This document shows, piece after piece, positions 19,794-42,078 of a DNA stretch of 64,000 bases. Within the stretch, counting starts at the first letter, position 1. Each line of letters opens with the position of its first letter. Under the pieces are notes generated by a model, which was not told the origin of the DNA, did no database searches, and saw only the letters and a program-made list of their open reading frames with translations. The position numbers and the translations under genes were made by a program. The stretch comes from Nocardioides marmorisolisilvae (GTDB lineage: Bacteria; Actinomycetota; Actinomycetes; Propionibacteriales; Nocardioidaceae), in contig NZ_CP134227.1 of the NCBI RefSeq assembly GCF_031656915.1, positions 1,984,001 through 2,048,000 on the forward strand, in the 5' to 3' direction.

Positions 19794-21791
19794 CCCGCGC
19801 AGCTCGTCCGGCTCGGTGACCGGGCGCTGACAGACCAGGTTGCGACACACATACGCCGCTGCGCGGCCGTCCACCAGCGTGCGGCCCTCGAGCAGCGGGA
19901 TCGTCGGGTCGACCGCGTCGGGGTGTACGACGAGGCTGACTGCGCCGATCGTGTTGCGGGCGATCCGGGCCAGCGGGTCGCCCTCGCCGTCCTCGGTGAC
20001 CACGACGAGCTCGGCCGGCCCGTCGAGCATCTCCTCGGCGGCGGCCAGCGACCACCCGGCGAACCTCGGAGCCCGCTCGGCGAGGGCCCGGACCGCACCC
20101 AGGGCCCGCTCCGCCGCAGCGCGGTGCCGGGCCGAGCCGGTGAGTGCGGCGTACCTCGCCAGCGCACGCACCATCGCCGAGTGACCGCTCGGACTCGCGT
20201 TGTCGGACGGATCGCGCGGACGCGCGACGAGCGCCTCGGCGTCGTCGGCGGTGTCGAAGAAGCCGCCGTCATCGGCAGCGAAGTGCTCCAGAGCGACGTC
20301 GAGCAGCGCACCGGCCCGCTCGAGCCATCGCTGGTCGGCGGTCGCCTCGAGCAGGGCGAGGAAGCCGTCGGCGACGCACGCATAGTCCTCGAGCACACCC
20401 TGTGGCTCCCCCACCGTCCCGTCCCGCGAGACCCTGCGCAGCCGGCCATCGACCCAGTGCAGCCGCCAGAGCAGATCCGCGGCCCGTTCGGCGGCCTCGA
20501 TCAGACCGTGGTTCTCCAGCACGAGCCCGGCGCGCACCAGGCCGGAGATGGCCAGCCCGTTCCAGGCTGCGACGACCTTGTCGTCGCGGGCTGGCCGGGT
20601 GCGCCGACTGCGGGCACGGGCGAGCCTGTCCCTCAGGGTGAACCAACGAGAGAGCTCGGTCGCAGCCGGATCGGCGCGCAGCTGCAGGGTCGACCTCCCG
20701 TGCTCGAAGGTCCCGGGCTCCGTGGCGCCGAGCAGCTCGGCGACCCAGCGACCGTCGTCCCCGCCCAGCACGTCAACGAGCTCGCCGGGCGTCCAGATGT
20801 AGAAGGTGCCCTCGGCGCCGTCGGAGTCCGCGTCCAGCGCCGAGGCGAGGCCGCCCTGGTCGGTGAGCAGCTCGGTCAGCAGGAAGTCGGCGGTCTCCTC
20901 CACGACCCGCCGGGCGAGGTCGTCGCCGGAGACGGCGTACCAGTCGGCGTACACACCGAGCAGCTGGGCGTTGTCATAGAGCATCTTCTCGAAGTGCGGC
21001 ACCACCCAGCGCGCGTCGACGGAGTAGCGAGCGAACCCACCGCCGAGCTGGTCGTACATCCCGCCGCGGGCCATCGCGGTGCAGGTCTTGTCGATCATGT
21101 CCTTCGCTTCGGCTCCTGAGCGCGACGAAGGTCCGGTGCGCGCCAGGTGCCGCTGCAGGAACGCCAGCACCATGCTCGGCGGGAACTTGGGCGCGCCGCC
21201 AAAGCCACCGTTCGTCGCGTCGAACTCGCGAGCCAGCGTGTCCACCGCGCCGGCGAGCAGGTCCTCGTCGAACGCGCCAGACTGCAGCGACGCCTCCTTG
21301 CGAAGGAAGTCGCGGATCTTGTCCCCGCTGGACCGCACCTCGTCGCGGCGGTTGGTCCAGGCGTCGGTGATCGCCTCGAGCAGCTGACGGAAGCTCGGCT
21401 GGCCGTGTCGCGGCTGGTCGGGGAAGTAGGTGCCCGCGAAGAACGGGGTGCCGTCGTGGTCGAGCACACAGGTCATCGGCCAGCCGCCGTTGCCGGTCAT
21501 CGCGACGGTCGCCTGCATGTAGACCGCGTCCACGTCGGGCCGCTCCTCGCGGTCGACCTTGATGGCCACGAAGTGCTCGTTGAGGTAGGCCGCGGTCGCG
21601 TTGTCCTCGAACGACTCGTGCGCCATGACGTGGCACCAGTGGCAGGCGGCGTACCCGACGGACAGGAGAATCGGTGTATCCCGACGCTTCGCCTCGGCGA
21701 ACGCGTCAGGCCCCCACTCCCACCAATCCACCGGATTAGCTGCATGTTGGAGCAAATATGGGCTCGTCGCGGAGGCCAGTCGATTGGCCAA
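19779..21791 (-). CDS. YyaL/SPATA20-like thioredoxin-domain protein, 5' end supplied by the mobile element
   Basis: A 670-residue protein with an N-terminal thioredoxin-like domain, including the CHWC motif in [20 protein letters not shown], followed by an alpha/alpha toroid region ([30 protein letters not shown]). Its cellular role is not well defined. Codons for residues 1-19 come from the integrated element: the start is TTG 21791, with GGTAGGA nine bases upstream, aligned with the native ATG now stranded at 42078. The element codes [20 protein letters not shown] with different codons from the host. An upstream GTG at 21800 is an alternative start, but its spacing to the Shine-Dalgarno is poor. 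Confidence 0.85.
21629..21737. repeat. attL: 109-bp direct repeat, left copy
   Basis: Identical over 109 bases to 41916-42024. It codes (minus strand) for the [19 protein letters not shown] to CHWCH part of the thioredoxin domain, a strongly conserved stretch suited to integrase targeting. The crossover lies somewhere inside; the exact core cannot be placed from this window alone. Confidence 0.9.
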
Positions 21792-21814
21792 TTCTGTCAC
21801 TCCTACCAGTGGCA

Positions 21815-21860
21815 CGTGTATCACTCTTCGATCAAGTGATACACGAGAGTGATACACGAG
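21815..21860. repeat. left integrase arm-type repeats
   Basis: AGTGATACACGAG occurs in tandem at 21835-21847 and 21848-21860, and its first 11 bases occur inverted at 21815-21825. The same tandem pair is found near the right end at 41778-41803. Position just inside both ends, beside the integrase gene, fits arm-type binding sites of a tyrosine recombinase. The inverted copy at the left adds asymmetry between the arms. Confidence 0.65.
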
Positions 21861-21897
21861 ATCGGCGTATGGTGGTTTCCCCAGCGTAGGAGGTCTC

Positions 21898-23304
21898 GTG
21901 GCGAAGCGAACTCAGCCGACCCTGCTCGCGCAGGGCAAGCTGCGCACTGCGCGCGGCAGCCAGCGGCCGTGGCGAGTCCGGCTGTATGCCCCGACGGTGG
22001 GCACCAACAAGTTCCAGGTGATGTTCCGCGCCCCCGCCGGCGACGGCGAGCCGTGGAAGCGGGTGCTTCGACGGGCAGCGTCGGAGGAGGAGGCGCGCGC
22101 GATCTTCGCCCAGGCCGAGGCGGCGCTGGACACGGAATCAGCGACGCCCGTGGGTGCCGATGTCCGGGCCTCCCGAACGATCCGGATGCTCGGCGAGGAG
22201 TACCTCAAGGAGTCGATCGCGCGCGGCAAGCAGCCGCGGACGATGGAGGGACGCGAGTCCCGGCTCAACGCCCACATCCTGCCCACCATCGGCGAGGTGC
22301 CGGTCACGAAGTGGCGCGTCGAGCACAGCCGCAAGGTCATGGAGAAGGGATCAAAGACGCTCTTCTCGCAGCGCGGCCGCGAGGACCTGCGCGGCCAGCT
22401 CGCGGCGATGCGCAAGCTCGCCTGGCGACTCGGCTGGCTCGACCGCTCGATCGACCCGCTCGACGGCCTGGAGATCGGGCGCGCCAACGTCCTGCACGGA
22501 GCGACGGCCCAGTATGTCGACCCGCGCCTGCGTCCCGAGACCCGCCAGGTTCGGGCGATGGCCGCGGCGGCCGACAAGCTGTGCGGCCCCGAGGGCACCG
22601 ATCCGCTGATGACCCGGCTGCCGTTGTTCGGCACCAAGATCCGCGTGGCCGGCTTCGGTGGCCTTCGCCTCGGCGAGCAGAACGGGCTGCGCGCGATAGA
22701 CGTCTTCTTCCAGGAGGGCTACGTCCACGTGAACGGCGCCTGGATCACCCCGCGCAAGGCCGCGGGCTTCCGTGGCCCGGTGAAGAACCACACCCTCCAC
22801 GAGGTCCCTCTCCCCCGGTCCTTGATGCGCGACGAGCTCCTCCCCCGCGTCGCCGTGCTGCTGGGCCTGCCGGCGGATGCCGCCCTGCAGCGTGTGCTCA
22901 ACGTCCAGGAGGAGGAGCGCCAGCGGCGGGCTTCACTCGCGCAGCGCGAGAAGGACCGCAACCTCGCCTGGTGGAACTATCCCATCCCGCCGGAGGACGA
23001 GCAGTGGCTCTTCGTCGACACCGTCACTGGTCTGCCCGTCAAGCCCGAGATGCACAACGATCGCTGGCACCGAGTCCGCGCATGGGTCGACGAGAACGAC
23101 CCCGACAACGCCTGGCCGCGCACGATCGTCTACCGCAACCTCCGCCACCACGCCGCGACGAAGTGGTTCCACGAGGAGCTCGGCGAGCCCTGGGAGGTCG
23201 TCGCCCAGTACCTTGGCGACAAGCTCACGACGGTGCTCAATCACTATGTCCGTGCCGGCGAGGACGCCCTCCGCGACTCGGTTGGGAAGCTCGCCAAACT
23301 GTGA
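21898..23304 (+). CDS. tyrosine recombinase/integrase of the element
   Basis: A 468-residue integrase with strong Shine-Dalgarno GTAGGAGG before GTG 21898. An N-terminal arm-binding region is followed by a SAM-like core-binding domain (about 95-190) and a catalytic domain. The first catalytic Arg is in GGLRLGEQ, the second box is [12 protein letters not shown] (Arg replaces the usual first His of HxLRH), and the nucleophile Tyr is in VLNHYVRAG near the C-terminus. The catalytic domain has an insertion of charged residues at about 325-370. It directs insertion into the thioredoxin-domain gene and lies 160 bases from attL. Confidence 0.93.
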
Positions 23305-23527
23305 ACAAGACTGATGAGCAGGTTGGGGCTGATCGACGACATCTGAGGGGACATGGCCTCCGACCCGTGCTTATGCGGATCACATGCACTCGGGGACACA
23401 TCTGGGCCACAACGCAGCAGGCCCTCGATCCTCGGATCCGGGGCCCGTTCGAAACTCCATCAACCCGTGATGCGTGCTTGAGAACACTTCTTCAGCGAAT
23501 GACGCCGTGGTTCCGTAGTCTCCAAGT

Positions 23528-41680: not shown

Positions 41681-41777
41681 GTTAAGAATCGGCTGGAAAG
41701 CTAACATGTCTTCGCGACGTGTCAGGTCACCGAACACGTCGAGATCGGCTGCCACAGGGTCACCAGTGATGGGCCCG

Positions 41778-41803
41778 AGTGATACACGAGAGTGATACAC
41801 GAG
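41778..41803. repeat. right integrase arm-type repeats
   Basis: Two tandem copies of AGTGATACACGAG (41778-41790 and 41791-41803), identical to the left-end pair. They lie 113 bases inside the right direct repeat, compared with 97 bases for the left pair. Confidence 0.65.
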
Positions 41804-41851
41804 GCCCCGGAATCGGCGTCAAACGGCGGCGCCATACGAAACAGGGCTAGA

Positions 41852-41882
41852 CGCGAAACCCCTTCTGACCTGCGGTTTCGCG
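41852..41882. terminator. stem-loop near the right end of the element
   Basis: CGCGAAACC and GGTTTCGCG form a perfect 9-bp stem with a 13-base loop containing CTGACCTGC. It could be a terminator isolating the element from the host or part of the recombination site. No T-tract follows. Confidence 0.4.
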
Positions 41883-41907
41883 GATTTCCGTCGACAGCCG
41901 TTGAAGG

Positions 41908-42078
41908 TTAAACCTCGTGGCACCAGTGGCAGGCGGCGTACCCGACGGACAGGAGAATCGGTGTATCCCGACGCTTCGCCTCGGCGAACGCGTCAGGCCC
42001 CCACTCCCACCAATCCACCGGATTTTGGGCGTGCTGGAGCAGATACGGGCTTGTCGCGCTGGCGAGCCGGTTGGCCAT
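41908..42078 (-). pseudogene. stranded native 5' end of the thioredoxin-domain gene
   Basis: A 56-codon remnant starting at the original ATG 42078 with a Shine-Dalgarno-like AGGAG upstream. It reads [20 protein letters not shown] and on through the CHWCH active-site segment, then meets element sequence and stops at TAA 41908 after two foreign codons (EV). It keeps the native promoter region and could still be translated into a short peptide. It aligns codon for codon with the element-supplied 5' end at 21791. Confidence 0.9.
41916..42024. repeat. attR: 109-bp direct repeat, right copy
   Basis: Identical to 21629-21737. Divergence starts abruptly on both sides (41915 and 42025). Outward from it, host sequence continues into the native start codon and promoter. 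Confidence 0.9.

Follow-up and report, generated by a model that had tools for sequence, protein, structure and literature searches.

Very probably, a site-specific mobile element has split the yyaL-like gene of Nocardioides marmorisolisilvae, supplied it with a control region and an N-terminus, and kept it readable. Gene and element lie in the 64,000-nucleotide stretch of DNA analysed here (contig NZ_CP134227.1 of NCBI RefSeq assembly GCF_031656915.1, positions 1,984,001 to 2,048,000 of the forward strand), to which we refer as the window; yyaL is the name that we assume for this PF03190 gene. In the mechanism that we propose, a tyrosine integrase would cross over at the CHWCH active-site codons (about 50–54) of a DUF255/YyaL gene. 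The circular form, released by excision, would carry next to int a control region with repeats and a Shine-Dalgarno sequence, followed by its own yyaL codons 1 to about 50. Upon integration, the host gene body would be placed behind this control region and N-terminus, to be transcribed and translated from the element from then on, while the previous start would be stranded at the element's other end. The element-borne codons would evolve with the integrase and be constrained at the level of the protein; presumably, selection acts against elements that break the gene. As to the order of events, the start now stranded in the window perhaps goes back to an earlier insertion of an element from this family.

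The two 5' ends of yyaL in the window

The yyaL-like gene (Thioredox_DsbH/DUF255; PF03190, E=9.7e-75) occupies 19782..21791 on the minus strand and reads 670 codons from a TTG at 21791. Its 5' end appears to be supplied by the element: the recoded codons 1–19 lie at 21735..21791 (minus strand), and an AGGAG Shine-Dalgarno sequence that would likewise come from the element is found 8 nt before the TTG (21800..21804, minus strand). A second 5' end, stranded at the far side (41908..42078, minus strand), runs for 56 codons from an ATG and then meets a stop. When the integrase-proximal copy (TTG at 21791) is compared with the distal copy (ATG at 42078) over codons 2–19, 7 codons are identical, 10 differ synonymously, and only codon 18 differs in its amino acid, with GCT (Ala) in the proximal and CAA (Gln) in the distal copy. 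Random placement of the 14 nucleotide differences changes the amino acid in 8.8 codons on average, as opposed to the single change observed (P ~5e-5). Next comes a 109-nt tract (21629..21737, minus strand) that is 100% identical to 41916-42024. A preliminary description of this DNA had pointed out these codon counts, the TTG start with its separate GGTAGGA and the 109 bp of perfect identity, and both counts and coordinates could be reproduced.

The same description had placed the attachment site in a protein-coding segment and not in a tRNA. The window indeed contains no tRNA, which rules out a tRNA as the integration target, and the split gene is a yyaL relative at 18 of 18 loci (see below). 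A search of the genome recovered no N-terminus copies beyond the two in the window and no second full yyaL copy, a source for the remnant that the description had itself considered.

Recurrence, crossover and separate histories of the two ends

Is this arrangement peculiar to the window? Relatives of its integrase occupy 18 loci in named genomes (Nocardioides, Aeromicrobium, Nocardioidaceae bins and one bin labelled Frankiaceae). At all 18, as the preliminary description had proposed to check, int adjoins yyaL, at a distance of about 105–150 bp from codon 1 and in divergent orientation; the target is in each case a relative of the PF03190 gene, and never dusA. In 20 genomes (those of the 18 loci plus G030 and G074), a second yyaL copy limited to about codons 1–55 is present in 17, and in 11 it lies on the integrase contig. 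This second fragment is split over two frames in G164 and was not found in the Iso805N, LS_FP_113 and G074 assemblies. The yyaL gene reads through at least 652 codons in 16 of the 18 loci long enough to judge. A different reading frame at empty sites, for which the preliminary description had allowed, was not encountered: 14 integrase-free sites of the genus (G004, a partial match, excluded) keep the same frame over codons 1–61.

Gene order upstream of yyaL was rejected as a guide to empty sites, as it gave too few matches; the MazG-like and SLFN-helicase proteins of the window match only their own locus (L085) among 76 loci, mostly with about 1.5 kb of flank, and have no match in a further 19 loci. 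An origin from phages or plasmids was likewise rejected, since tblastn of both collections recovered no relative of the integrase. The lone phage DNA match, to a 4.5-kb unannotated 'Bacteriophage sp.' record, spans query bases 6–124, inside the conserved coding part of yyaL. Two loci stand apart within the family. An apparent tandem of two family elements, about 116 kb and 16 kb in size, is seen at G040:C1:1056002-1188666 (L229 and L031), the second integrase of which carries a stop codon. The Frankiaceae-labelled bin (L057, G151:C126) has a further yyaL start on another contig, which is either a second copy or contamination.

Where would the crossover take place? We compared 17 left-right pairs codon by codon, the window included, left being the integrase side. 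Over codons 2–46 the two ends differ at most positions, mostly synonymously, with the exception of the Trp-rich codons 23–26. Codons 47–54 differ least: codons 51 (His) and 52 (Trp, which has one codon only) in 0 of the 17 pairs, codon 53 in 1, and codons 50 and 54 in 4. Past codon 56 the two copies diverge. This pattern points to a crossover at the CHWCH active-site codons, with a putative left core (attL) at 21630..21644 and a putative right core (attR) at 41917..41931, both covering codons 50–54 on the minus strand. The preliminary description had taken the replaced segment to be codons 2–19, a detail that finds no support in relatives, where the element appears to supply codons 1 to about 50. 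Given a probable crossover at codons 50–54 and longest identical runs of 12–43 nt in the 16 other pairs (overlapping codons 45–57 in 12 of them), the window's 109 nt look like an exceptionally long tract and not like a minimal attachment core. Codons 20–46 of the window's far end have a mean distance of 0.189 to the left copies of other elements, as compared with 0.283 to far ends and 0.266 to integrase-free genes; the far end of the Frankiaceae element is likewise of the left type (0.208, 0.275 and 0.254, respectively). As these codons are of the left-copy type at both ends of the window's element, one end would have been converted or inherited from an earlier element.

The two ends have separate histories. 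Correlations were determined for 15 of 21 elements, namely those with a usable integrase, a gene body of >400 aa and a far-end copy. Over codons 2–46, distances between left copies correlate with those between integrases (rho 0.72, P 0.001) and less with those between host gene bodies (0.34, P 0.03). For far-end distances over the same codons, it is the host body that shows a correlation (0.43, P 0.004), and the integrase shows none (0.01). The 5' end on the integrase side thus follows the history of the integrase, and the far-end fragment that of the host.

Selection at the protein level is seen in the same codons. The ratio pN/pS is 0.18 in integrase-side copies (n=19 of 21; TF02-7 and G074 excluded), 0.29 in far ends (n=17) and 0.29 in integrase-free genes (n=14); the left ends of Root140 and Soil797 are nearly identical and therefore not independent. 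Taken pair by pair over codons 2–46, pS ranges from 0.28 to 0.93 and pN from 0.05 to 0.26, and amino-acid changes fall below the null expectation in all 17 pairs (P<=3.3e-4 each). Constraint on the codons that the element brings seems no weaker than on those of the host. These pairs, and the long reading frames mentioned above, bear out what had been suggested for the window, namely a recoded start that is constrained at the protein level and does not knock out the gene.

Several observations pull in the other direction. Restricted to codons 2–19, the left copy follows the host body at least as closely as the integrase (0.51 and 0.39); with third positions alone, both values drop (0.27 and 0.20). 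Third positions of far-end codons 2–46 follow the host body weakly (0.18, P 0.11). In 4 of the 16 other pairs (21Sc5-5, Frankiaceae, N. pocheonensis and Sulfur19), the longest stretch of identity is found away from the proposed core, and in six genomes the second 5' fragment is on a contig other than that of the integrase. Two of the 18 loci contain an apparently broken yyaL, with a frameshift near codons 17–19 in TF02-7 and an interruption near codon 420 in Iso805N. Codons 19–55 are identical at both ends of the window's element, so that the window alone shows replacement for codons 1–18 only. Finally, a non-exhaustive scan of 16 open reading frames (ORFs) of the element returned no match to a type IV secretion system or FtsK.

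Could the matching 5' ends be a mere by-product of homologous recombination or duplication, in which an unrelated insertion separates the copies of a partial yyaL duplication and no 5' end has come with an element? The perfect identity over 109 bp does resemble a recent duplication or gene conversion, codons 20–46 at the far end of the window's element resemble integrase-side copies, and left copies are on average slightly nearer to their own far end (0.274) than to others (0.298; codons 2–46). However, there are 17 pairs with this arrangement, and apart from the window all 16 have copies that differ over much of codons 2–46. A left copy's own far end is its closest in only 2 of the 17 pairs (the window and the Frankiaceae metagenome-assembled genome), left copies track the integrase and far ends the host, and left and right arm repeats agree in 15 of 15 elements, while the cargo varies from one element to the next. 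We consider such a by-product extremely improbable. Scarcely better are the prospects of a 5' coding segment kept at the DNA level, as an attachment site whose protein product is irrelevant. Crossover does need sequence shared with the host, and codons 47–54 are those that differ least. Yet the ends differ mainly synonymously over codons 2–46, with fewer amino-acid changes than expected in every pair, and a constraint on DNA would not spare amino acids only. An element that brings its own protein-constrained yyaL start is the reading that we retain.

Control region and the start at the far end

The new control region of yyaL contains three GTGTATCAC repeats (21816..21857), two of them direct and one inverted, which are probable arm-type sites of the integrase. 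A 26-nt direct repeat at the right end (41778..41803, plus strand) equals 21835-21860, which comprises two of the arm-type sites, and a right-arm motif, GAAACCGCAGGTCA, is present at 41866..41879 (minus strand) and recurs, identical or with one mismatch, at the right ends of several other elements. The repeats to which the integrase would bind are GTGTATCAC/GTGCATCAC. Those between int and yyaL reappear on the far side, for the most part at constant distances. All 15 elements whose left and right repeats are in register carry the same C/T variant on both sides; of the remaining two, Sulfur19 has no left repeats and SSC3 has a single off-register match on the right. Since the left arm-type sites fall within the new control region, an integrase that binds them might also regulate yyaL. 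Arm-type repeats of this family were also seen at L200 (G378:C38) and L201 (G002:C2), with no yyaL fragment in the 3.5 kb examined; G002 has no match to the yyaL N-terminus.

An AGGAG lies within 20 nt of the start in most left copies (18 of 21), less often at far ends (8 of 24) and seldom at integrase-free loci (8 of 82). Conversely, a TANNNT box 4–22 nt before the start occurs in 0 of 21, 7 of 24 and 26 of 82, respectively, and many native yyaL genes may be leaderless. The leader contains an inverted repeat, 84.5% of the cells of which are paired, with a covariation score of 0.237; each of these values was reached by 0 of 500 shuffles, but 89 of the 500 matched the both-side pair changes and 243 the further pair types. 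Folding z-scores are -3.9 for the window, -0.8, -1.3 and +0.7 for three others, and -0.4 for the far-end start. An RNA hairpin or other RNA element is not claimed, because two inverted integrase sites explain the covariation equally well and folding stands out in the window alone.

Is the start at the far end native? The preliminary description had called it so, and a 56-codon fragment is indeed stranded there; the word 'native' is made doubtful by an upstream region that resembles that of an element. This region (42079..42147, minus strand; AGGAG at 42088-42092), detected with nhmmer, contains a degenerate element-type module, possibly the relic of an earlier element. Against a control-region profile of 17 left copies, from which the window was excluded, it scores 16.7 bits, versus 6.8 for the best of 2000 mononucleotide shuffles. 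A second program with the 17-copy model, again without the window, gave 21.4 bits (E=6.3e-4 for the genome) and a match anchored at the start codon; the genome-wide profile search used stricter filters, so that weak matches may be lost. Anchored matches of >16 bits exist at 5 of 24 far ends (SSC3, at a tandem junction, Soil797, G030, G290 and the window), and a sixth far end has a partial match at a contig edge. That of the Frankiaceae element is represented by 21 nt of upstream sequence, up to a contig edge.

Genes without a present integrase bear on the same question. A yyaL gene was detected in 202 of the 341 genomes searched; 82 integrase-free loci (no integrase at E<=1e-10) were drawn among the matches listed. 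Four of them have an anchored match (G022, 41.9; G220, 37.3; G089, 32.1; G016, 18.3 bits, covering the Shine-Dalgarno part only), and 76 have no match above 5 bits. L193 was picked through its profile match, though it is also among the general yyaL matches; G386 has only about 42 nt upstream, and G022 and G075 carry short integrase fragments. At L194 (G022:C94), three yyaL 5' pieces, two of them fragments, stand in a row together with an integrase scrap, and would be the remains of at least one decayed element.

Upstream of the far-end start in the window, degenerate integrase-type repeats are present, among them GTGATGCAC, of the C variant. The repeats of the present element are of the T variant, so that any earlier element would have belonged to another lineage, and insertion at the same spot of yyaL may have occurred twice in the window. 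Have the DUF255/YyaL starts of Nocardioidaceae been overwritten repeatedly by elements that later decayed, leaving some genomes that lack a full integrase, and the window before the present element, reliant on a control region and start of element origin? We rate the chances of such serial promoter replacement as even. Codons 2–18 of the far end (own genome excluded) are at distances of 0.251 from far-end, 0.266 from integrase-free and 0.285 from left copies; they fall slightly on the native side, carry no element signal and weigh against a relic. So do codons 2–46 of G022, G089 and G016, which are native-like by a rule that is correct for 18 of 19 left and 74 of 76 integrase-free copies; in G220, codons 2–19 are native-like. 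The idea that all four integrase-free genes have starts that an element simply left behind was therefore rejected; in three of the four, conversion or later change would be needed.

Alternatively, the far-end start of the window could be truly native, and its likeness to the module due to chance or to shared promoter ancestry (e.g. a control region once captured from a host). The match of 16.7 bits is modest, the position of codons 2–18 fits a native start, the native-like codons of three integrase-free genes are not predicted by a start simply left behind, and the element-type codons 20–46 could be explained by conversion from the left copy. This possibility strikes us as rather unlikely in view of the genome-wide E value, the anchoring at the start codon and the low scores of shuffled sequences, the many integrase-free loci that give no match, and the degenerate integrase-type repeats.

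Related systems and content of the element

Gene starts supplied by a mobile element are already known, and yyaL is not the first such case. As far as the excerpts consulted go, the integrases of dusA islands and of IMEVchUSA3 target the 5' end of a gene, whose 5' coding sequence the element replaces while supplying a promoter (PMC8409611); dusA islands swap the 5' end for their own sequence (PMC4482086), and expression of dusA from the element was demonstrated by lacZ fusion (PMC8409611). The SXT/R391 integrative and conjugative elements (ICEs) insert at the 5' end of prfC and bring a new promoter and N-terminus (PMC8409611, PMC2786100; excerpts). Because prfC and dusA elements likewise replace 5' ends, the yyaL element belongs to a known kind: int sits at the 5' junction (18 of 18 loci), the 5' end is replaced in frame (17 pairs), and the displaced 5' end is found at the other junction (17 of 20 genomes). 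Within the same excerpts, dusA islands also share a preserved reading frame and the association of one integrase family with diverse cargo and element types. They differ in gene and hosts, and their N-terminus was compared over 35 residues (61% identity), whereas the yyaL element would cross over in CHWC active-site codons and replace about 50 codons; expression is demonstrated for dusA, while the yyaL element is known here from its sequence. The SXT/R391 elements are described there as conjugative ICEs of about 100 kb that target prfC in other bacteria, whereas the window element, although equipped with a relaxase, shows no recognised transfer machinery in the ORFs that were scanned.

Actinomycetes also harbour ICEs of the pSAM2 type. 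The element of J54 carries a pSAM2-type RepSA initiator, a relative of which is present in N. pocheonensis, and the hosts are likewise actinobacterial; the window element differs in having no RepSA match among the scanned ORFs, a TrwC relaxase and a target other than a tRNA.

New are the target gene, the actinobacterial integrase family and the element-type starts at 4 of 82 integrase-free loci. In an open library we found no paper that links DUF255/yyaL with an integrase, and a limited search of article listings on 5' replacement, dusA and scars gave no account of relic starts. The family offers a protein-coding attachment site in actinobacteria with enough copies to separate the history of the element from that of the host and to reveal that selection preserves the reading of the host gene. 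Elements of this type may be able to rewire a host gene for good, as the possible relic starts suggest. Serial replacement, if true, would make a mobile element a lasting editor of a host promoter, and the gene, which in its native state often has no Shine-Dalgarno leader, would acquire one. With its gene-specific integrase, proposed core and arm repeats, the system is a candidate tool for Nocardioides and Aeromicrobium.

The tyrosine recombinase (468 aa; 21898..23304, plus strand) matches a PHROG integrase family (E=1.2e-18) and reaches 22.5 bits for PF00589, under the cut-off of 27.1 bits. R257 and R416 are invariant and Y450 is present in 15 of 16 rows of an alignment of 16 integrases, the window included; we take these residues to be catalytic. 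In one relative (L036:6865-8256), Ser replaces Tyr450 (NHSVRAG) and left repeats are absent; it is probably a dead copy. Twelve elements, all selected for carrying the integrase, were compared for content. The window encodes a predicted TrwC (MobF-type) relaxase with a helicase domain (35502..38090, plus strand; PF08751, E=1.5e-50; relatives in 9 of 12), a helix-turn-helix (HTH) regulator (38090..38905, minus strand; 6 of 12) and a small excisionase-like protein with a tentative start codon (39118..39399, plus strand; 6 of 12). The excisionase label comes from a weak phrog_66 match (E=5.8e-4) of a relative, L227:8010-8327; the window protein was itself outside that scan. Having an integrase and a relaxase, with no mating apparatus among the 16 ORFs scanned, the element, about 20.3 kb in size, would qualify as an integrative mobilizable element.

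Besides its HTH regulators, it has cargo of the defence type, with SIR2-like, LmuB-like SMC, MmeI-type restriction and paired AbiE proteins. The element of N. phosphati carries a type I restriction system; as cargo varies, the att module would be common to different elements. The LmuB-like SMC protein (PADLOC, E=1.2e-46) ends a three-gene group at 25617-29241, the two upstream proteins of which matched no Pfam family; this group is possibly a Lamassu-like defence system with these two as partners. At 23528-25562, also inside the element, an ISL3-family transposase directly follows the 210-aa SIR2-like ORF, which is perhaps cut short. A T5orf172 protein, a DEAD-box helicase and the MmeI-type enzyme follow one another on the minus strand at 29319-35172. 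Elsewhere in the window, two 1470-bp copies of an insertion sequence with a DDE_5 transposase (12481-13950 and 15771-17240) are 99.9% identical.

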